Positions 2,251-12,823 of a stretch of DNA of 64,000 nucleotides are shown in pieces. Under the pieces are notes generated by a model. That model was not told the origin of the DNA. It saw only the letters and a program-made list of their open reading frames with translations, and searched no databases. Source of the DNA: Defluviimonas salinarum. Lineage in GTDB: Bacteria > Pseudomonadota > Alphaproteobacteria > Rhodobacterales > Rhodobacteraceae. The stretch is from positions 124,001-188,000 of the forward strand of contig NZ_JAPDOG010000004.1 of the NCBI RefSeq assembly GCF_026013545.1, given 5' to 3'. Both the position numbers and the translations under genes were made by a program. How positions within the stretch are numbered: the first letter of the stretch is position 1; each line of letters opens with the position of its first letter.

Positions 2251-3030
2251 ATGAAGATCGCGACCTTCAACATCAACGGCATCAAGGCGCGGGCGGAGGC
2301 CCTGCCCGCCTGGCTCGATGAGGCGTCGCCCGACATCGTGCTCCTGCAGGAGATCAAGTCGGTCGACGAGGCGTTCCCGCGCGAGCTTTTCGAGGATCGA
2401 GGATATTTCGTCGAGACCCACGGCCAGAAGAGCTTCAACGGTGTGGCGATCCTGTCGAAGATTCCTCTGGAGGACTTGACGCGCGGCCTGCCCGGCGACG
2501 ATGCGGACGAGCAGGCGCGCTGGATCGAGGCGACGGTGGTCGGCAAGACGGCGGTGCGGCTCTGCGGGCTCTACCTGCCGAACGGCAACCCCGCGCCGGG
2601 GCCGAAATACGATTACAAGCTCGCCTGGATGGCGCGGATGAAGGAACGTGCTGCCGAGCTTCTGGCCGAGGAGATGCCGGTGGTCATGGCGGGCGACTAC
2701 AACATCATTCCCCAATCCGAGGATGCCGCGAAGCCCGCGGCCTGGGTCGAGGACGCGCTCTTCCTGCCCGATAGCCGCGCCGCGTTCCGGCGGATCCTCA
2801 ATCTCGGCTATACCGAGGCGTTCCGCACCCGCGAGCCGCGGCCCGGGCATTACTCGTTCTGGGACTACCAGGCCGGCGCCTGGGCGAAGAACAACGGCAT
2901 CCGCATCGATCACCTCTTGCTCAGCCCGCAGGCCGCCGACCTTCTCAACGACGCCGGGATCGACAAGGCGGTGCGCGGCGGCGACAAACCCTCCGACCAC
3001 GTTCCGGTCTGGATCGAACTCGACGCCTGA
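2251..3030 (+). CDS. xthA: Exodeoxyribonuclease III / AP endonuclease
   Basis: A 259-residue Mg-dependent exonuclease/AP endonuclease for base-excision repair. The full ExoIII motif set is visible: FNINGI (Asn7), LQEIK (metal ligand Glu34), Tyr109 in GLYLPNG, AGDYNI (Asp149, Asn151), IDH at 220 and the C-terminal SDH pair Asp249-His250. Length is normal for the family. It is preceded by a hairpin and followed by a convergent bacteriohemerythrin gene, so it is probably transcribed on its own or by read-through from betC. Confidence 0.95.
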   Translation: MKIATFNINGIKARAEALPAWLDEASPDIVLLQEIKSVDEAFPRELFEDRGYFVETHGQKSFNGVAILSKIPLEDLTRGLPGDDADEQARWIEATVVGKTAVRLCGLYLPNGNPAPGPKYDYKLAWMARMKERAAELLAEEMPVVMAGDYNIIPQSEDAAKPAAWVEDALFLPDSRAAFRRILNLGYTEAFRTREPRPGHYSFWDYQAGAWAKNNGIRIDHLLLSPQAADLLNDAGIDKAVRGGDKPSDHVPVWIELDA

Positions 3031-3057
3031 GCCGCCACACGGCGCACGGAGCGACCG

Positions 3058-3462
3058 TCAGTGATCGTGTGGTCCGAGCTTTCGGTGCAGCCGTGCGTCG
3101 TGGGTCCGGAAATGCTCGACGAACCAGGCTTCGAGCGCCGCGGTCAGCCGCTCCGCCGCCGCCTCGGCATCGTCATGCGCGTCATCCATGATGTCGCGCA
3201 GCGCGTCGAGCAGGCGCTCATGATCGGCCTTGTGCGGCGGGTACTGGTCGTATTCGGCGCGCCGCATCTGCTTTTCCTCATGCGCGAAATGCGCCGATAT
3301 CGCCCGGAAGAGATCGCCGAAACTGCGGTCGATATCGGCGCCGGGCCGGCCGTCGAGGATCGCCGCGGCGGCGCTGTTGACCAGCTCCACCAGTTCCTGG
3401 TGCTCGTGGTCGACCGCCGGGTCGCCGACGCTGTATTCCGGTTTCCATGCGATCGGGGCCAT
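3058..3462 (-). CDS. Bacteriohemerythrin (last gene of the haem-copper operon)
   Basis: A 134-residue four-helix di-iron protein that reversibly binds O2 and possibly NO. All ligands of the family can be placed: His21, His58 and Glu62 (HFAHEEKQM), His77 and His81 (HKADH), and His117 with Asp122 (EHFRTHD). No signal peptide or membrane segment is present, so it is cytoplasmic and stand-alone. It is the last gene on the minus strand behind the CuA/haem-copper operon, 12 bp after the preceding stop. This suggests it buffers or delivers the diatomic gas handled by that enzyme, which is inference from position. Confidence 0.88.
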   Translation of the reverse strand: MAPIAWKPEYSVGDPAVDHEHQELVELVNSAAAAILDGRPGADIDRSFGDLFRAISAHFAHEEKQMRRAEYDQYPPHKADHERLLDALRDIMDDAHDDAEAAAERLTAALEAWFVEHFRTHDARLHRKLGPHDH

Positions 3463-3474
3463 CGCGCCCTCCCC

Positions 3475-3996
3475 TCAGTGCAGGTAGAACCGGCCGGTTG
3501 TCGCGTCGAAGTCGATCGCGACGCTTTCGGCCGGCGCCACCACGATATCGAAGGCCGCCTCCTGGGTGAAGCCCGCGACCGCCGGGTCGTCGCGCATCCG
3601 GACCGCGACGCGGTAGCTGCCGGCGGGTACGAGCAGGCGGTGATAGACCCGCGACGGTCCCGAACCCGAGATCCCACTCGGCGGCAGGTCGGCGGCGAAG
3701 GCCGGTTCTCCGTCGAGATCGAGCTCGACCCGCACCGGCGCCCGGCGACGCTCGCAGACCTGCGGCGTGCGCATGTTGGCCGGAAGCTTCGCCAGTTCCT
3801 CGGCGGTGCGGTCGCGGCAATCGCGCACGCCGCTGTGGGCGAAACTCAGCCGCATGAGGGCCATATCCCCGGGCACGCTCTGCCACATGGGCCGCGCCGA
3901 CAGCATGGCGACACCAAGAAAGAGCGCTAGGGTCAGCGCCCCGCCCAGTGCGAGATGCGGCCAGCGCCGGCCCCAGTCGATGCCCGGCCCGCTCAT
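3475..3996 (-). CDS. One-TM protein of unknown function in the haem-copper operon
   Basis: This is a 173-residue protein I do not recognise. A basic N-terminus is followed by one membrane segment (around residues 15-33, LALGGALTLALFLGVAML), and the remaining ~140 residues would be periplasmic. That part has two Cys (in RDCRD and QVCERR) and a beta-rich C-terminal half. The topology resembles FixH-like or cytochrome-oxidase assembly proteins, but no signature is conserved. It overlaps the start of the preceding cytochrome b/FeS gene by 4 bp (ATGA), so the two are translationally coupled. A role in assembly or stability of that membrane complex is inferred. Confidence 0.6.
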   Translation of the reverse strand: MSGPGIDWGRRWPHLALGGALTLALFLGVAMLSARPMWQSVPGDMALMRLSFAHSGVRDCRDRTAEELAKLPANMRTPQVCERRRAPVRVELDLDGEPAFAADLPPSGISGSGPSRVYHRLLVPAGSYRVAVRMRDDPAVAGFTQEAAFDIVVAPAESVAIDFDATTGRFYLH

Positions 3997-5570
3997 GTCG
4001 CGCTCCCTGCCCGTTTTGCGGCGCCGTTCGCCCCGGCGGACTCGGTTTCCTGGAGCGGCCGGACATTCTCGTAAGGCGGCATCGCCGCGAGCCGCTCCGA
4101 AAAGCCTTTCAGCTCGGCGGCGAGCCGCGTCGTCTCGCTCGGCCCGGCCCAGACCGTGAGGATCCGCTCGCGCGGCACGCGCCGGCGGAGTTGCGGATCG
4201 CGGGTGCGGGCGAAGCGGTCACGGGTCCAGGCCCCGCCGACCCGGTTGTAGCAGTCGCGCTCGGCACAGCCGGCGACAGCGACGCCGTCGGCAAGGCCGC
4301 GGCTGATGATGAAATCCAGAAGCGAGGGCGGCGCCATCGCGACGCAAGGCAGGACGACGCGGCCCGGCGCCGCCTCTCGCCCCGCGGCATGGGCGCAGGA
4401 GAGCGTCATCACCCGCCCCGGCCCGGTCAGTCCGCGCGCCGCCGCGATCACCTCGGCGCGAAGCTCGGCCAGCGGCCGTCCGGGCAGATCGATCCCGGTG
4501 ATCAGATCGCCCGAACGGCGGAACGGCGAGGAAGACGGACAGGCGCCCATGCAGATGCCGCAGGCGACGCAGCGGTCGGCATTGACCTCGACCTCGTGGC
4601 TGAAGGGCAGCCCGTCCGTGCGCGGCACCAGCGTGATCGCGGCATAGGGGCAGTCCTCGACGCAGCGCGTGCAGCCGTTGCAGAACTCGAGGAACACCTT
4701 AGCGGCGGCAGCCTCGCGGCGCGGCGGCAGCCAGGGCAGGCCAATGAGAAGCAGGGTGAAGACCACGGTTCCGGCCCAGATCACGCCGGGCGGCACGCTC
4801 TCGATCACCGGGTAGAGCGACAGGAGGAACCAGTCGAGCCCAACCTGCTGCGGTACCTTCGCCAGGTCGGCGGGCCCGTCGAGATAGGCCGGCAGCGCGA
4901 GCGAGGTCGCGACAAGCGCGACCACCGTAATGAGACCAAGACCGCGCGGCGGGTTCGTCCGCGCTTCGGTGATGCGCTGGATGTGGATCCACATCAGGAG
5001 AAGCAGGAGGAGCGGGATCGCGATGTGGAGGAACACCATCAGCGTGAAGAACCGGCCCGAAAGCGTATCCGGCGCGAGGAAGTTGCGCGCGATCGGCTCG
5101 GCGAAGATGCCGAGGCTGTCGAGAAGCTCGGTCGTGGTCAGCGCGACGTATTGCGCCAGCTCGTCCCAGACCAGCCAGTAGCCGGTGATGCCGGAGAGAT
5201 AGACGAACCAGATGATCGGCACGCCGGTGATCCAGGAGAACCAGCGCCGCCCCCGGTAGCGGTCCATCGCCCATTCGCGCACGAGATGGACGAACATCAC
5301 CAGCACCATCAGATCCGAGGCGTAGCGGTGCACGCTCCGGGCGAGCCCGGCATGCCACCAGTGGTCGCGGCTCAGCCATTCGACCGAGCCATAGGCAGCG
5401 GTGACGCCGGTGTCGAAGAAGATGAAGAGGTAGATTCCGGTCCCCGCCACCAGCCAGAACAGGAGCCAGCCGAGCGGGCCGAGCTGGGCGAGCGGGTTCC
5501 AGTCCGGCCCGAACAGCCGGTCGAGCCCGAGTTCGACCCGGTCGAATCCGCGCCTCAGGATGTCGCGCAT
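3993..5570 (-). CDS. Cytochrome b / 2x[4Fe-4S] ferredoxin / MvhD-like fusion protein
   Basis: A 525-residue three-part redox protein. Residues ~30-285 are a membrane cytochrome b with two haem-b ligand pairs, His81/His95 and His182/His196, each spaced H-X13-H as in bc1/b6f cytochromes. Residues 297-307 (CNGCTRCVEDC) and 334-344 (CVACGICMGAC) are two complete [4Fe-4S] motifs. Residues ~385-480 resemble MvhD/FrhD, the delta subunit of F420-non-reducing hydrogenase, with Cys392, Cys409, Cys435 and Cys440 placed as iron-sulfur ligands. No quinol-site or hydrogenase catalytic subunit is beside it. It overlaps SCO1 upstream by 1 bp and the next gene by 4 bp. It probably passes electrons between quinone or a soluble donor and the haem-copper enzyme; direction and donor are unknown. 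Confidence 0.85.
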   Translation of the reverse strand: MRDILRRGFDRVELGLDRLFGPDWNPLAQLGPLGWLLFWLVAGTGIYLFIFFDTGVTAAYGSVEWLSRDHWWHAGLARSVHRYASDLMVLVMFVHLVREWAMDRYRGRRWFSWITGVPIIWFVYLSGITGYWLVWDELAQYVALTTTELLDSLGIFAEPIARNFLAPDTLSGRFFTLMVFLHIAIPLLLLLLMWIHIQRITEARTNPPRGLGLITVVALVATSLALPAYLDGPADLAKVPQQVGLDWFLLSLYPVIESVPPGVIWAGTVVFTLLLIGLPWLPPRREAAAAKVFLEFCNGCTRCVEDCPYAAITLVPRTDGLPFSHEVEVNADRCVACGICMGACPSSSPFRRSGDLITGIDLPGRPLAELRAEVIAAARGLTGPGRVMTLSCAHAAGREAAPGRVVLPCVAMAPPSLLDFIISRGLADGVAVAGCAERDCYNRVGGAWTRDRFARTRDPQLRRRVPRERILTVWAGPSETTRLAAELKGFSERLAAMPPYENVRPLQETESAGANGAAKRAGSAT

Positions 5571-6385
5571 CAGATCGCCCCGCGCTCGGCCCGTTTCAGC
5601 GCCCGACGGCGTTCGAGCCAGAGCCGGAAGATCACGATCCCGGTCAGCACCAGCGAGAGCGCCCCGAAGAAGATGCCGAAGAAGATGCCGTAGTCGAAAC
5701 GGTAGGCGCCCGTCAGCGGGTTGTAGACCGTGCAGAGGAACGAGATCCGGTCCCAGAGCCCCTCGGCCGTGATCGCCGTCGTCCTGATGCCGAGCACCAG
5801 TTCCTTCAGGGGTTCAAGGAGCACCGGCAGCGGGAAGGCCTCGCCGTACATCTGCCGGTAGACCCGGCCCTCGGCATCTAGGAGGCTCGTCTGGGTCACA
5901 TGCTCGAACCCGCCCGCCCCGGCGCGGAAGGAAAAGCCGAGTTCCGTGAGCAGGGCCTCGGTCGTTGCCGGGTCGGCGCTGGCGATCTGCCAGTTCGTCA
6001 CCTCGACCAGCCGGTGGGTGCCGGCAAAGCCCGCGAGCTGCGCCGGCCGGTCTCCGCTGGCATCGAAGCCGAAGGTGAGGATGTTGAAGGCGTCGTTGCC
6101 GAGCGCCTGCTGCGCCTTGAGGACGGACTCGCGCAGGTGGTCGGCGGTGATCGGGCAGACCGTGGCGCAGCTGGTGAAAATCAGCGAAACGAGGAGCGGC
6201 TTGCCGCGCAACTCCGCGAGCGTGAGCGTCCGGCCGCGATGGTCGGTCAGGACGTGGTCACTCGTCGCGTTGCCGATCGCCGCCTGGCTCGTCTCGTAGG
6301 CGATTTCCGCGTCGAGCTTCTCCGCCACGGCGGGCGACGCCGCGAGTCCGGCGAGGATGACCGCCAATGCCTTCAGGAGACCCAT
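5570..6385 (-). CDS. SCO1/SenC copper chaperone for the CuA site
   Basis: A 271-residue periplasmic thioredoxin-fold protein that delivers copper to CuA of subunit II. It has a signal peptide (cleavage after PAVA, ~residue 21), the copper motif CATVCP (Cys73, Cys77) and the third ligand His162 in GFEHVTQTS. Unlike typical SCO1, it continues after the fold into a C-terminal membrane anchor (~residues 230-255), so the chaperone is tethered at its C-terminus. It overlaps the upstream CtaB-like gene by 13 bp and shares one base with the downstream cytochrome b fusion. The presence of senC next to CuA/haem-copper subunits matches the norSY-senC arrangement described for ammonia oxidisers. Confidence 0.9.
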   Translation of the reverse strand: MGLLKALAVILAGLAASPAVAEKLDAEIAYETSQAAIGNATSDHVLTDHRGRTLTLAELRGKPLLVSLIFTSCATVCPITADHLRESVLKAQQALGNDAFNILTFGFDASGDRPAQLAGFAGTHRLVEVTNWQIASADPATTEALLTELGFSFRAGAGGFEHVTQTSLLDAEGRVYRQMYGEAFPLPVLLEPLKELVLGIRTTAITAEGLWDRISFLCTVYNPLTGAYRFDYGIFFGIFFGALSLVLTGIVIFRLWLERRRALKRAERGAI

Positions 6386-7269
6386 CTTGCGGCCCCGTCG
6401 AGCAGCACGCCGGCCGAGACCAGCGCGAAATGGAAGAGCGAGGCGCGGAAGGTCGCCATCGCGTTGCGGCGCTCTGGCTCGCGCAGGAGCCGCCAGCTTG
6501 CACGGAGGAACATCGCTCCGCCGAGGGCGGCGCAGAGACCGTAGAGCGGCCCGAGCCCATATAGCAGAGGCCCGAACGAGATCAGGACGAGGACGAGGAC
6601 ATGGCTGAAAATCACCGGCCCCCAGACCTCCGGCCCGGTGACGACGGGCAGCATCGGGATGCCCGCGCGTTCGTAATCGGCACCTTTTGCGGCGGCGAGC
6701 GCCCAGAAATGCGGCGGCGTCCAGAGAAAGAGCATCGCCGACAGGAGGACCGGCACCGGCGCCAGCGTCGGGCCAAATTCGGGTGCCGCCGCCGCGGCCC
6801 CTGCGAGGAGCGCGAAGCTGCCCGCCGCACCGCCGATCACGACGTTCCAGACAGTGCGGCGCTTCAGCCAGAGCGTGTAGACGACGCCGTAGGTGAAGGC
6901 GCCGCAGAAGACGAGGACGGCGGCGAGCGTGCCGCCCACCGACCAGCCCATCACCAGCGAGGCGGCGAGGAGCGCGGTGAAGGTCAAGGGCCAGATCGCG
7001 CCCGGCTTCAGCTTCCCGCTGGCGAAGGGCCGCATCGCCGTGCGCGCCATCAGCCGGTCGCTCTCGCGCTCGAAATAGTGGTTGAAGGCCCCCGCCGCGC
7101 CGGAGGCCCCAAGTACTGCGAGGGTGAAGACCAGGGCCTCGGCCCAGCCCATTTCGCCGCCGCCCGTAACGATGCCGACCAGGGCGGCGAGGGCCACGAA
7201 GGAGCCGATCCGGAGCTTCAGGATCGAGGCGGTCATCGTCAGGGCGGCGGTCATGGGCAGGCTCCGCAT
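6373..7269 (-). CDS. ctaB: CtaB-like protohaem IX farnesyltransferase (haem O synthase)
   Basis: A 298-residue UbiA-family prenyltransferase with about eight to nine membrane helices. It farnesylates haem B to haem O, a precursor of the haem in haem-copper enzymes. The prenyl-diphosphate motif is NHYFERESD from Asn63; the usual N-x3-D-x3-D is present as N-E-D, with Glu67 in the first acidic position. The following RTAMRP and the C-terminal second motif region fit the family. Start codon is ATG at 7269, with an alternative ATG 15 nt later (MTAAL). Being inside this operon, it is probably dedicated to the linked enzyme rather than the cell's housekeeping copy. Confidence 0.82.
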   Translation of the reverse strand: MRSLPMTAALTMTASILKLRIGSFVALAALVGIVTGGGEMGWAEALVFTLAVLGASGAAGAFNHYFERESDRLMARTAMRPFASGKLKPGAIWPLTFTALLAASLVMGWSVGGTLAAVLVFCGAFTYGVVYTLWLKRRTVWNVVIGGAAGSFALLAGAAAAAPEFGPTLAPVPVLLSAMLFLWTPPHFWALAAAKGADYERAGIPMLPVVTGPEVWGPVIFSHVLVLVLISFGPLLYGLGPLYGLCAALGGAMFLRASWRLLREPERRNAMATFRASLFHFALVSAGVLLDGAARWVS

Positions 7270-7282
7270 CGGATGGAAGGGG

Positions 7283-9013
7283 TCAACGGAACAGCCAGAG
7301 TTCCGACAGGTACTTCCAGTTCACGAAGTAGTAGAGCACGAAGCAGGCGAAGAAGATGCCCACGAGGATGATCGTGCCCGGCAGTTTCAGCGTGCCGTGG
7401 CTGCCGTATTCCGCCACCGCCTCGCGGCTCTGGTCATGGAGCGGGAAGCGCATCTTCGCGCCCGGACCCTCGAGCTTCGGCCCGATCAGGATCGAGGCGA
7501 CAACGACGAGGATGAACACCACCCCGCCGATCGCCGCGAGGATGGCGAAGATCCCGTTGAGCCCCATCATCAGATAGGCCGCGGCCGGATACTCGAACGC
7601 ATGCGCCGCGTCGGTGAGCGAGATGTCCCAATGCCGCCGCGCCACGCCGAGCGTGCCCGCCCCCATCATGAAGAGCGAGATCCCGCCCGCGCCAATGCCG
7701 AAGAGGAACGGCTGCCATTTGGCCAGCGTCGGCCAGACGATGTCGCGCTGGAAGATCAGCGGCACCACGAGGTAGGTCATCGCCATGAAGGCGAGCGTCG
7801 TGCCGGCGACGACCGTGCCGTGGAAATGGCCCGGAACGTAGATCGTGTTGTGCATCAGCACGTTCAGCTGCTCGGTCCCGAGCACGACGCCCGAGATGCC
7901 ACCGATGAAGCCGAACATCACGAGCGAAAGGAACATGCCGGAGAAGGCCGGGTTGCCCCAGGGCGCCTTGGTCAGCCATTCGAACGCGCCGCGGGTGAAG
8001 CCGTTGCGGCGCTGCGCCGCCTCGATCGCGCCGGGCACCGTCAGCCCGTGGATCATCGAGCCCATGACCGCGAGATACATCATGTAGGAGGTGTTCACGA
8101 TCTTCCAGGTCGAGCTCATGCCCGGCTCGGCGAGGAGGTGATGCGCCGAGGCGAGCTGCAGGAACAGGATGTACATCAGGAACGCCGTGCGGCTGACCTT
8201 TTCCGACAGCGGCTTGGCGCCGAGCACCATCGCGCCGATCGCGTACCAGATCGCGACATGGGCCGAGACGTTGATCTGCTGGCTCGAATGGCCCATGCCC
8301 CACCAGACGACCTTGTACATCAGCGAGTCGATGTTGGAGATCAGCCCGAGCGACCAGAGCCAGGTCGGGATCAGGATCACCGCGCCCGAGGCGAGCGTGA
8401 AGACCGCGATGATCCCCGCCGTGATCGCCCCGAAGGTGACGAGTGGCACCGAACCGTCATAGGTGTTCTCGGCCTTCGCCACGACGAGCGTGCCGAAGAA
8501 GACCATCACCGAGACGAGTGCCCCCACAGCAAAGATGATCAGCGAGAGGTAGAACCAGTGCGAGGCCTGCATCGGCGGATACGAGGTGAACATCACCGAG
8601 GAATCGCCCCTCAGCACCGCGTAGTTCGCCATCACCGCGCCCGCGACCATCAAGAGGAAGCCGAGCCAGGCCAACCACGGCGTCGCAAGGCGGCTGCCGA
8701 GGATTACCGAGGAGGCGAAATAGAGCACCGCGATCTCGAAGAAGATGATCCAGAACAGGAGCACGTTCGCCCCGTGCCCGGTGAGCACGAGGTAGAACAG
8801 CTCCGCATCGAGAAGCTGAACTGCGGGCCAGCGCGTCAGCGCCACGAGAAGCCCCATCAGCCCGCCGAGCGCGAGGAACAGCACCGCCGCGACGGCGTTG
8901 ACCTTGATCAGCGCCTCGGCGCTGGAATCGACCTTCAGTCCGGTGAAGCGGCAGACGCGATAGCGCGCCCCGGCGCCGGAGACGGGAGCCGCACCATGAT
9001 CAATGCTTGTCAT
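7283..9013 (-). CDS. Haem-copper oxidoreductase subunit I lacking the active-site Tyr (NorY/sNOR-like)
   Basis: This 576-residue membrane protein has about 12-14 helices. The metal ligands are present: His80 (low-spin haem, helix II), His242, His291 and His292 (CuB), and His396 and His398 in GHFHG (high- and low-spin haems). In oxygen reductases the helix VI motif HPEVY (or HPIVY in B-type) ends in a Tyr covalently linked to the CuB His. Here the motif is HSSQQ, with Gln246 at the Tyr position, and no Glu as in cNOR. Loss of that Tyr is a mark of NO reductases in the superfamily, and linkage to a CuA subunit plus SenC fits NorSY/sNOR. An unusual O2 reductase is the alternative. No subunit III is nearby. 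Confidence 0.85.
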   Translation of the reverse strand: MTSIDHGAAPVSGAGARYRVCRFTGLKVDSSAEALIKVNAVAAVLFLALGGLMGLLVALTRWPAVQLLDAELFYLVLTGHGANVLLFWIIFFEIAVLYFASSVILGSRLATPWLAWLGFLLMVAGAVMANYAVLRGDSSVMFTSYPPMQASHWFYLSLIIFAVGALVSVMVFFGTLVVAKAENTYDGSVPLVTFGAITAGIIAVFTLASGAVILIPTWLWSLGLISNIDSLMYKVVWWGMGHSSQQINVSAHVAIWYAIGAMVLGAKPLSEKVSRTAFLMYILFLQLASAHHLLAEPGMSSTWKIVNTSYMMYLAVMGSMIHGLTVPGAIEAAQRRNGFTRGAFEWLTKAPWGNPAFSGMFLSLVMFGFIGGISGVVLGTEQLNVLMHNTIYVPGHFHGTVVAGTTLAFMAMTYLVVPLIFQRDIVWPTLAKWQPFLFGIGAGGISLFMMGAGTLGVARRHWDISLTDAAHAFEYPAAAYLMMGLNGIFAILAAIGGVVFILVVVASILIGPKLEGPGAKMRFPLHDQSREAVAEYGSHGTLKLPGTIILVGIFFACFVLYYFVNWKYLSELWLFR

Positions 9014-9026
9014 CGTCCTTCCTCCC

Positions 9027-9581
9027 TCACTCGACGACGCGGATGCGCCCGGTCATCGTGTGATGCCCGACGCCGCAGAATTCGTTGCAGACGATGCCGA
9101 AGTCGCCCGTTCCGGTCGGCGTCAGCGTCACGACATGCTCGTAGCCCGGATGGACCGAGATGTTGATGTTCGTGGGCTGCAGCGAGAAGCCGTGCTGCCA
9201 ATCGGCCGAGGACAGGTGAATCCGGTAGCTCTCGCCCTTCTTCAGTTCGAGGATCGGCCAGAACTCCCAGAGCCGGGCGAGGATATAGGCGTCGCCGCCC
9301 ACGGGCGGCCGCACCACCGGCACGCCGTTCTCCTCGAGCGGCTGGCCGTCGGCATCCTGCGCCTGGAACTCGGCGGCGAAGGCCTCGACCCTTTCCTGGT
9401 AGCGCTCGGGCTTGACCTTGTAGGTCTCGGTCGAGAGGTTCTGTTCGCCGATGAAATGCCAGGCGATCATGAAGAAGAACATGAACAGGCCCCAGAGGAA
9501 AGCGATGACGATCCAGCCGAGCTCGATTCCGTGGATCGGTTCCTTCCACCAGAGGCGGTTTGACGGGGGTGTGATGGCCAT
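9027..9581 (-). CDS. CuA-containing subunit II (NorS-like)
   Basis: A 184-residue protein with a single N-terminal membrane helix (~residues 20-42) and a periplasmic cupredoxin domain. The CuA site is complete: His130 (DWQHGF), Cys165, Glu167, Cys169, His173 and Met176 in CNEFCGVGHHTM. It is much shorter than A-type subunit II (about 250-300 residues) and has one helix instead of two, as in B-type (ba3-like) and NorS proteins. It should accept electrons from a periplasmic cytochrome c or cupredoxin and pass them to subunit I, encoded 13 bp downstream. Confidence 0.88.
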   Translation of the reverse strand: MAITPPSNRLWWKEPIHGIELGWIVIAFLWGLFMFFFMIAWHFIGEQNLSTETYKVKPERYQERVEAFAAEFQAQDADGQPLEENGVPVVRPPVGGDAYILARLWEFWPILELKKGESYRIHLSSADWQHGFSLQPTNINISVHPGYEHVVTLTPTGTGDFGIVCNEFCGVGHHTMTGRIRVVE

Positions 9582-9608
9582 GGTTGCGCCCTTCCTACAG
9601 CGACAGGG

Positions 9609-9791
9609 TCACTCGAAGACCGGAATCGAGGCGATCTCCATGACGCCCCAGATCGTGTAGAGCACCGCCGGCACGGTGATCCCGAGGAAGAGCAGCAGGA
9701 ACGGATTGTCGAGAACCTGCTGCATGAAGGGAACGCGCTCGGGCGGCCCTTCGCCACCTACCTTGCCCTTGTCGGCCTTTCGCTCGGTCAT
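9609..9791 (-). CDS. 60-residue single-TM protein, first gene of the haem-copper operon
   Basis: It has a hydrophilic, Lys/Glu-rich N-terminus of ~25 residues and one helix (FLLLFLGITVPAVLYTIWGVM), ending after IASIPVFE. It lies 27 bp upstream of subunit II on the same strand and starts at an ATG preceded by a GGGAGGAG ribosome binding site. The arrangement recalls subunit IIa of ba3 oxidases, a single helix that completes the two-helix hairpin missing from short subunit II. I see no sequence signature that proves this. Confidence 0.7.
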   Translation of the reverse strand: MTERKADKGKVGGEGPPERVPFMQQVLDNPFLLLFLGITVPAVLYTIWGVMEIASIPVFE

Positions 9792-9984
9792 TCTGGCTCC
9801 TCCCGCTCTGTGCGAAAGGGGTATGTCTGCGATCGCGTGCCTCGGAGAGTTCCGAGGCTATGCCCCGATCTCATGCCCTTTCGCCACTTCGGCGCCCGTC
9901 ATGCGGAATCTGCCCCGGCAACCGGGCCGTCGCGCCAGCTTTCCGCGCGGGGTCCGAGTGAGCGGCAGGCTTCGCCGGAAAGGC

Positions 9985-10003
9985 GCATCCTGAGATAGGA
10001 TGC
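9985..10003. promoter_or_regulatory. Perfect inverted repeat downstream of the FNR box
   Basis: GCATCCT at 9985-9991 and AGGATGC at 9997-10003 form a perfect 7-bp dyad with a 5-nt loop. It lies ~25 bp from the FNR-type box on the side of the minus-strand operon, near where transcription would start if the box acts at -41.5. It could be a second operator or a hairpin in the 5' leader. Confidence 0.45.
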
Positions 10004-10027
10004 TCACACAAATGTGCCTTCCGCGGC

Positions 10028-10041
10028 TTGACTTATATCAA
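10028..10041. promoter_or_regulatory. FNR-type box (TTGAC-N4-ATCAA)
   Basis: TTGACTTATATCAA matches the FNR/FnrL consensus TTGAT-N4-ATCAA at 9 of 10 defined positions. It is about 237 bp upstream of the first gene of the haem-copper operon (start 9791, minus) and points to no plus-strand gene. Control by an FNR/CRP-family regulator under low O2 or NO is inferred. No good -10 hexamer was identified. Confidence 0.6.
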
Positions 10042-10264
10042 GGACCAAAAGGTTCGGACTCGGGACTATCTTCCGCCACTGGGGCTAGGGGATACGCGCC
10101 TGCGGCCAATATGGTCTGGAAACGCTCGGCCGTTCAGGGCTTGGACCGTGCCAGACGTTCGGGCTCAATGTACTGAAATTGCACGGCTTTCGACGCTCCG
10201 GCAGGACTTTCGAACAGACCGGCCACGCGCCGCCTGCATCCGTTGCCCGCGCCAACGCCTGCGG

Positions 10265-10289
10265 GCGGCGGCCTCATGACGGCCGCCGC
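10265..10289. terminator. Hairpin after guaB
   Basis: GCGGCGGCC at 10265-10273 and GGCCGCCGC at 10281-10289 form a perfect 9-bp stem with a 7-nt loop, 22 bp beyond the guaB stop (minus strand). There is no U-tract, so it would be a weak or Rho-assisted terminator. Confidence 0.45.
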
Positions 10290-10310
10290 TACCCTCGCGG
10301 TGCCAAGCGA

Positions 10311-11801
<1,491 letters not shown>

Positions 11802-11857: not shown

Positions 11858-12823
11858 TCAGGCCGTCGCCGCGTTGGTCTTGATGGCGAGCTGCCCGCGC
11901 GCCCAGAGCCGGAGCATCTGGAACGCGATCGCCGGCACGATGAGCGTTGCTGCGACGAGTAGCACGCCTCCCGGCACCCGCCAGAACCAGCCGACGGCCA
12001 GCCACAGGTTGGCGGTCGCCGCGAGCGGGAAGGTGAAGGCACCCCAGAGCGGGGAGAAACCCGCCTCGGTCAGCCAGAAGACCCGGGCAACGAACCATGC
12101 GAGCATGAGCGCCGCGATCCCGGCGCAGCCCAGCGATACGGCGTGAAGCTCCAGCGCCTCGGCCACCAGGCCCAGAAGCGCGACCGGCGCGAGATGGATC
12201 GACAGCAGCGGCCGGAGCGGCGAAGGCACCCCGTCCTTGACGATCTGCTCGAAGCTGACCGACCAGATCAGCGCCGCGATGAGCGCTGTGGCGAAGAAGA
12301 GCACGAGCGCCAGAACATAAAGCTCGAGCACCGTCGCGGCGAGCGCGCCGACGATGAACCCGACGAAGGTGAGATGCCAGACCGGGGTCACCCGGCGCTG
12401 CTCGGGCGGGCTCGTGAAAAATTGATGCACCAGCAGGGCGACTAGGATCCAGTGCAACCCGAACCCCGCCATCAGGACGCCGTAGGCCGCGCCGGCATGG
12501 TAGGGCGCGAACGTGATCGACAGGAGATACCAGCACAGGACCGCCGCGGCGACGCCGGCGCGGCCGGGCAGAATGCGCAGCTCCTCGACGATCACGCGCG
12601 GGCGCCGCGCGAGTTTGGCGCCGTAGCCGAAGAACGAGAACACGAAGAGTAGCGTCGTCGCGCCGAGGATCGCTTCCCCGACCCCGCCGGAAATCGCGAA
12701 GCTGTCCGCGGCCCGCCGCCAGCCGAGGCCGAGGCCAAAAAGCCCCATGATCGCCGGAAAGACTGCCGGAGGCATGCGCCGGAACAAGCCCGGCGGCGTC
12801 GGGGCCGGAGGTTTGAATGCCAT
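11858..12823 (-). CDS. TehA/SLAC1-family transporter
   Basis: A 321-residue inner-membrane protein with about ten helices. The start RMPPAVFPAIMGLFGLGLGW and the segment GFSPLWGAFTFPLA are typical of the TehA / C4-dicarboxylate / SLAC1 family, which are anion channels or exporters linked to tellurite resistance, malate or sulfite efflux. No TehB methyltransferase is nearby, so tellurite resistance should not be assumed. The gene is monocistronic as far as can be seen, with a 165-bp upstream region divergent from the ureohydrolase. Confidence 0.85.
   Translation of the reverse strand: MAFKPPAPTPPGLFRRMPPAVFPAIMGLFGLGLGWRRAADSFAISGGVGEAILGATTLLFVFSFFGYGAKLARRPRVIVEELRILPGRAGVAAAVLCWYLLSITFAPYHAGAAYGVLMAGFGLHWILVALLVHQFFTSPPEQRRVTPVWHLTFVGFIVGALAATVLELYVLALVLFFATALIAALIWSVSFEQIVKDGVPSPLRPLLSIHLAPVALLGLVAEALELHAVSLGCAGIAALMLAWFVARVFWLTEAGFSPLWGAFTFPLAATANLWLAVGWFWRVPGGVLLVAATLIVPAIAFQMLRLWARGQLAIKTNAATA

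Follow-up and report, generated by a model that had tools for sequence, protein, structure and literature searches.

A conserved eight-gene operon of Defluviimonas salinarum probably encodes an eNOR-type nitric oxide reductase and a candidate electron-transfer partner

The DNA analysed here, hereafter the window, is a stretch of 64,000 nucleotides from Defluviimonas salinarum (contig NZ_JAPDOG010000004.1, positions 124,001 to 188,000). Between positions 3058 and 9791 it carries eight open reading frames, all on the minus strand, which are separated by intergenic gaps of 12–27 bp or overlap by 1–13 bp. The first encodes a 60-residue protein with a single transmembrane (TM) helix (9609–9791) and lies directly 5' of the gene for subunit II of a haem-copper enzyme, which has a complete CuA site (9027–9581; COX2, E 0.0016, and CoxB, E 4.5e-10, both below the cut-off). 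The catalytic subunit I follows (7283–9013; COX1, PF00115, E 5.9e-61), then a haem O synthase of the CtaB/CyoE family (6373–7269; TIGR01473, 235.6 bits, over the cut-off) and an SCO/SenC copper chaperone (5570–6385; PF02630, over the cut-off). The last three genes encode a fusion of a diheme cytochrome b with two [4Fe-4S] motifs and an FlpD/MvhD domain, here called CytbFeS (3993–5570); X173, an unnamed protein of 173 residues without a family, modelled as a membrane-anchored beta-sandwich (3475–3996); and a bacteriohemerythrin, Hr (3058–3462; TIGR02481 and NF033749, both over the cut-off). An FNR/FixK-type box, TTGAC-N4-ATCAA (TTGAT-N4-GTCAA on the minus strand), stands at 10028–10041, 237 bp upstream of the first gene. 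Judged from its sequence, the operon very probably encodes an eNOR, a B-type haem-copper nitric oxide (NO) reductase, along with assembly factors and a candidate for a dedicated electron-transfer partner.

The gene content is not peculiar to this window. We took as relatives the best 80 of at least 481 loci among the candidate stretches, from named genome contigs; their titles are almost throughout those of Alpha- and Gammaproteobacteria, and most are metagenome-assembled genomes (MAGs). The exact order IIa-II-I-CtaB-SCO-CytbFeS-X173-Hr, where IIa is the 60-residue protein, is repeated in 55 of the 80, and the arrangement is therefore far beyond chance. Gene by gene, the 80 loci hold IIa in 78, subunit II in 80, subunit I in 80, CtaB in 72, SCO in 78, CytbFeS in 76, X173 in 68 and Hr in 68. 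Ten of the 25 loci without the exact order stop at a contig edge (six inside CytbFeS, two after the start of CtaB and two after the start of SCO), and in two further ones, L091 and L123, X173 is in one open frame with CytbFeS. The haem O synthase, the cytochrome b/FeS/MvhD fusion and the hemerythrin, all named in the original prediction, are thus real and recurrent; the single one-TM protein of that gene list became two, the 60-residue protein and X173.

Residue conservation was read from alignments of up to 84 rows (the window, the 80 relatives and three plasmid relatives), in which a row had to cover at least 70% of the window protein and shorter ones were dropped. The best solved relative of subunit I is the ba3 oxidase of Thermus (chain 1ehk_A, E 9.5e-42). 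When subunit I is aligned to this chain, the counterpart of His242 is the CuB ligand His233, and that of Gln246 is a Tyr four positions further along, which we take to be the Tyr that is cross-linked to that His. The original prediction had read HSSQQ from His242 (residues 242–246), with Gln246 for Tyr, and had counted all six haem and CuB histidines as kept; both observations extend to the relatives, since His80, His242, Gln245, Gln246, His291, His292 and His396 are present in 84/84 rows and His398 in 83/84. The exceptional row is that of Thermus thermophilus, whose eNOR-like subunit I, found on two plasmids (L014, 15046–16731; L187, 12046–13731), reads HFK in helix X, with Lys replacing a His ligand of the low-spin haem. 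The GHxxQQ motif is present in this relative and in that of Thermomicrobium roseum, at about 44–45% identity, and in 29 further loci from a sample of 398 genomes of the phylum. Tyr257, Ser319 and His322, invariant in all 84 rows, align with Tyr, Ser and Thr of the ba3 enzyme and, on that alignment, are candidate polar residues of the single conserved proton channel expected of an eNOR.

Subunit II is short and its CuA site complete, as had been predicted, with the ligands His130, Cys165, Cys169, His173 and Met176 in all 84 rows and Glu167 in 83 (Asp in one); it takes the place of the cytochrome c subunit of a cNOR. The SCO gene, whose linkage had also been noted, retains Cys73, Cys77 and His162 in 78/78 rows, and the seven di-iron ligands of the bacteriohemerythrin are found in 70/70. 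Neither Pfam nor NCBIfam gives a match for the 60-residue protein. In Thermus and Thermomicrobium, too, the gene ahead of subunit II encodes a short protein with one TM helix, and the position is that of the subunit IIa described in PMC3128077. We believe that the 60-residue protein is probably subunit IIa of a B-type haem-copper enzyme.

Which subfamily the enzyme belongs to can be read from the active-site residue. According to Table A4 of PMC8756737, this residue is Tyr in O2 reductases, Glu in cNOR and qNOR, Asn in sNOR and CuANor, Asp in gNOR and Gln in eNOR, and in that paper the active-site Gln was used to define eNOR. Given Gln246, subunit I is eNOR-like and not sNOR-like. The original prediction had proposed an NO reductase of the NorSY/sNOR kind. 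Its first half is favoured by the residue, the tree, the promoter box and the neighbouring genes; its second half was not supported. The sNOR of ammonia oxidisers does have a CuA subunit II, a linked SenC and a B-type subunit I (PMC6967387), and the resemblance to the norSY-senC gene set had been taken as a sign of sNOR. However, Gln246 occupies 84/84 rows where Asn would be expected, and the SenC/SCO linkage does not discriminate, since SCO is also found in the operon of ba3-a1 (= eNOR) in Magnetospirilli, a subtype described as lacking the catalytic Tyr (PMC6431628). We therefore rejected the sNOR assignment and regard a NorSY-SenC enzyme at this locus as highly improbable. Among the loci examined from the plasmids and the phylum sample, where some of the listed matches were opened, no Asn-type or named sNOR was identified.

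The literature on ba3-a1 is in line with this. The subtype was renamed eNOR after a report of NO reductase activity, and MAG BS150m-G9 would use it as its NO reductase (PMC8879329). One of our relatives, L113, comes from this MAG; it is 70% identical to the window, has the eight-gene order and clusters with the window in the tree. From the MAG name, we infer that its gene is the one meant in that paper.

A phylogeny of subunit I, one of the checks that the original prediction had put forward, was run with ba3, A-type and NorB-like rows and with 31 Gln-type rows chosen from more than 100. In a maximum-likelihood tree of 47 rows, the Gln rows make up one side of a branch with support 99/92, and the NorB-like proteins of the own genome are placed elsewhere. 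When the long branches and outgroups (L012, L155, L003, L004 and L005) were dropped, the resulting 42-row tree gave the Gln group a support of 100/100, apart from the Tyr-bearing ba3 group, which itself has 91/69. The Gln group is thus separate from nine Tyr-bearing ba3 sequences and from the A-type enzymes of the same genome. L012 (G054:C1:900333–901745) is itself an oddity, a haem-copper homologue 28% identical and from the same genome family, which reads FHNMHY, YHMF and GYFHF at the ligand positions, so that several ligands are apparently lost. Our subunit I search of the phylum sample matched 34 of the 398 genomes, namely 30 with eNOR and G351, G516, G547 and G558; the Tyr motif is present in G547 and G558.

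Could the enzyme instead reduce O2, as a high-affinity or otherwise modified oxidase that can do without the cross-linked Tyr? The closest solved structure is a ba3 oxidase, and the fold, the ligand set and the subunits I, II and, probably, IIa (PMC3128077) are common to both. Nevertheless, there is no Tyr at His+4 in subunit I or in any row of the Gln group, and this group forms a clade of its own outside the Tyr-bearing ba3 sequences. The literature treats ba3-a1 as eNOR (PMC8879329). Denitrification genes also recur nearby. In flanks of up to 9 kb per side, NirS occurs in 20 of the 80 loci, NosR-like proteins in 13 and NnrS in 10, and 30 loci have one or more of the five proteins NirS, NosZ, NosR, NnrS and NorB. 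The same flanks contain ApbE in 14 loci and, among regulators, Crp/FNR in 25 and Rrf2 in 3. On the Thermus plasmid a nitrite reductase lies about 4.5 kb from the locus, the locus is immediately followed by genes for an Rrf2 regulator and a DUF542 protein, and nirS stands beside the eNOR relative on a second Thermus plasmid as well. The eNOR of Ardenticatena is in an operon with nirK (PMC4653789). On this evidence, we consider an O2 reductase unlikely, to a degree that leaves it a minor alternative.

The promoter region bears on both readings. Only one exact match to TTGAYNNNNRTCAA, which we take to be the FNR/FixK-type consensus, is present in the whole window, and it is the box at 10028–10041. 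Since TTGATNNNNATCAA with up to two mismatches occurs 17 times in the window, most often inside genes, where 7.3 matches would be expected, the box of the window would by itself be weak evidence, and the weight comes from the relatives: of the 75 loci scored, 49 have an FNR/FixK-type box no more than 500 bp upstream of the first gene, compared with 22/1366 control windows taken from these loci (the remaining five were left out, their first gene not having been found on the plus strand or being preceded by less than 500 bp). We see in this strong evidence that the operon is controlled by a putative regulator of the FNR/FixK family. A sigma-70 promoter scan of positions 2900–10400 returned 0 sites; the two terminator-like sites found with it are fewer than in shuffled sequence.

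Several points weigh against an NO reductase. A box of this type points to low oxygen or NO, and by itself it cannot tell an NO reductase from a microaerobic oxidase, which it would fit equally well. A role as a high-affinity terminal oxidase has been argued for the related sNOR (PMC6967387). None of NirS, NosZ, NosR, NnrS and NorB occurs in the flanks of 50 of the 80 loci, and both NosZ and NorB-like proteins were found in 0/80. In the genome of D. salinarum, contig 22 carries both nirS and a nosZ of clade I (no nirK scored over the cut-off), but the eNOR copy is beside neither. Nor is NO reduction otherwise missing there: two of the six COX1 proteins of this genome (G000:C37:6115–7341, near an A-type oxidase subunit I, and G000:C22:21490–22740) appear to be NorB-like by sequence. 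Finally, the trees that separate the Gln group from ba3 were built without a named sNOR, bNOR, gNOR or nNOR and without the eNOR of R. marinus, and those of Natronomonas and Ardenticatena were likewise not included. Murali and co-workers, writing in PNAS in 2024, are said to have characterised eNOR and to be the source of the R. marinus eNOR activity.

Taking eNOR as the most probable identity, we propose a route for electrons, a mode of catalysis and a mode of regulation that build on the observed gene content, metal ligands, conservation, box and co-occurrence. CuA of subunit II would accept electrons, presumably from cytochrome c, and pass them through the low-spin haem to the haem/CuB centre of subunit I. 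There, two NO would be reduced to nitrous oxide (N2O), with Gln246 in place of the cross-linked Tyr used for the splitting of O2. CtaB would supply the haem and SCO would load the copper, while an FNR/FixK-type regulator may turn the operon on at low oxygen or in the presence of NO. O2 or NO is the probable ligand of the hemerythrin in the cytoplasm. CytbFeS and X173 would form a redox complex of their own, apart from eNOR and serving the cells that have it, and would most likely carry electrons between the quinone pool and a partner in the cytoplasm, in one direction or the other.

The N-terminal half of CytbFeS matches cytochrome b6 chains and mitochondrial cytochrome b, as well as ExtP (E 1.1e-24) and ExtQ (E 3.9e-08), both far below the cut-off. 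In contrast to these proteins, it is fused to two [4Fe-4S] motifs and FlpD, and the operon has no Rieske gene. The FlpD domain (PF02662, E 1.3e-08), the sole FlpD match in the genome, lies next to the ferredoxin motifs as in the MvhD/FlpD and HdrA electron-transfer proteins, but in CytbFeS it is carried on a membrane cytochrome b. The predicted model (pLDDT 85.0, pTM 0.84) has about six long helices ahead of the soluble part. An alignment of 73 rows shows no change at the four His of the b haems, at the eight Cys of the [4Fe-4S] motifs or at Cys392, Cys409 and Cys435, and Cys440 is present in 71. Asp246-Trp247 is also found in 73/73, in what is presumably the region where cytochrome b has the PEWY motif of the quinol site. 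X173 was modelled with high confidence (pLDDT 96.0) as one TM helix and a beta-sandwich, and its Cys60, Cys81 and Arg85 occur in 72/72 rows. The window protein has no Pfam or NCBIfam match, a Pfam scan of 51 members gave stray matches only (best E 0.0053, 4/51), and a fold search returned no solved fold at E ≤0.001 (best 1.2e-3, TM-score 0.34).

The distribution of the fusion suggests a tie to eNOR. Among the 398 phylum genomes, 30 have a full-length eNOR, 34 have CytbFeS and 29 have both (Fisher p 8e-38, a value that ignores kinship). The five genomes with CytbFeS and no full-length eNOR are G460, which has an eNOR fragment, G360, G375 and G507, which are 69–82% complete, and G383 (96%); G460 was scored as negative on account of its fragment of 81 residues, and scoring it as positive would give 30/31 and four fusion-only genomes. 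X173 adjoins CytbFeS in 22 of the 23 phylum loci opened, the contig of the remaining one ending inside CytbFeS. Given this co-occurrence (29/30) and adjacency (22/23), CytbFeS and X173 appear to form a single unit that accompanies eNOR. A rival reading is that the pair has no part in eNOR function, as a hitch-hiker or as an independent respiratory module for NO or O2 stress. Consistent with this, 14 of the 29 genomes with both CytbFeS and eNOR carry them unlinked, far from each other on a single contig in 2 and on separate contigs of draft assemblies in 12, while 15 have them adjacent, and CytbFeS was not detected on the eNOR-bearing plasmid records of Thermus and Thermomicrobium, plasmids being all that was searched. 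On the other hand, just five genomes have the fusion without eNOR, and among the 80 relatives CytbFeS is in the operon in 76, the other four being cut by contig ends. We therefore believe that an independent module is the less probable reading, though one to be reckoned with. In five loci (L149, L150, L200, L201 and L202) CytbFeS is present twice, either in tandem or on both sides of X173.

If the pair serves eNOR, one specific and rather doubtful scheme is that CytbFeS-X173 is a Rieske-less quinol complex dedicated to eNOR. Quinol would be oxidised, with the high potential at which eNOR reduces NO as the driving force, and part of the electrons would pass through two b haems, three Fe-S centres and FlpD to a cytoplasmic acceptor. 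In that case, NO respiration via eNOR would also yield low-potential reductant; run in reverse, the complex would offer a direct route from cytoplasmic donors to NO.

The locus is thus most likely an eNOR, an enzyme type already known though little studied, with CytbFeS as the candidate electron-transfer partner worth testing. What it has in common with the eNOR known as the 'ba3-a1' of Degli Esposti is Gln for Tyr, the six His, an adjacent CuA subunit II, SCO in the operon, placement in the B family and occurrence in Alphaproteobacteria. The full eight-gene set with CytbFeS, X173, hemerythrin and an FNR/FixK box is different, in that it did not appear in the parts of the eNOR descriptions that we found; the Thermus and Thermomicrobium loci have only a IIa-like protein, II and I (plus CtaB in Thermomicrobium). 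We likewise found no description of the eight-gene operon or of a CytbFeS partner of eNOR in the literature searched, outside which lay the primary eNOR paper, two possible operon papers and the figures of PMC6431628 that draw the ba3-a1 cluster, so that the novelty of the operon is not established. Our analysis extends an eNOR signature (Gln at His+4 with a CuA subunit, the eight-gene order and the FNR/FixK box) over many alpha- and gammaproteobacterial genomes. Furthermore, the CytbFeS/X173 pair makes the electron route to eNOR, and energy conservation by its NO reduction, testable.

The operon is patchily distributed and can be mobile between replicons. In the order-level search, 6 of 244 genomes match, five of them at 82–100% identity including the own genome, and two congeners listed in that search have no match. 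The operon also occurs in Pseudaminobacter arsenicus CB3 (L063), and in Defluviimonas sp. SAOS-178_SWC (L013) the whole eight-gene set is carried on a 165-kb plasmid, NZ_CP156080.1; together with the patchy distribution, this copy makes gene transfer a likely cause. Its subunit I is labelled 'cbb3-type cytochrome c oxidase subunit I', much as the original prediction had expected of automatic annotation. As eNOR makes N2O yet carries the annotation of an oxidase, it escapes gene surveys restricted to cNOR and qNOR. A contig titled Saprospiraceae (L103) carries a 70%-identical copy of this otherwise proteobacterial operon, for which mis-binning is likely.

Some relatives also encode a second COX1-like protein, either beside CytbFeS-X173 (L149, 11490–12866; L150, 3127–4650; L200, 469–1911; L201, 1–1419) or near eNOR (L092, 3582–5012; L108, 6182–7963; L124, 4923–6374). 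These proteins have GxGHxLQ and AHYH motifs, and six of the seven have no CuB His pair (in L150, HHH occurs in an unplaced stretch). Pfam COX1 scored over the cut-off in the three that were scanned, and the two scanned against NCBIfam had no match. These motifs suggest that the second protein is a haem-copper homologue that lacks a normal CuB site. Elsewhere in the window, a gene for a transporter of the SLAC1/TehA family (11858–12823) lies upstream of the operon on the same strand, beyond an IMP dehydrogenase gene, and is probably unrelated to it.

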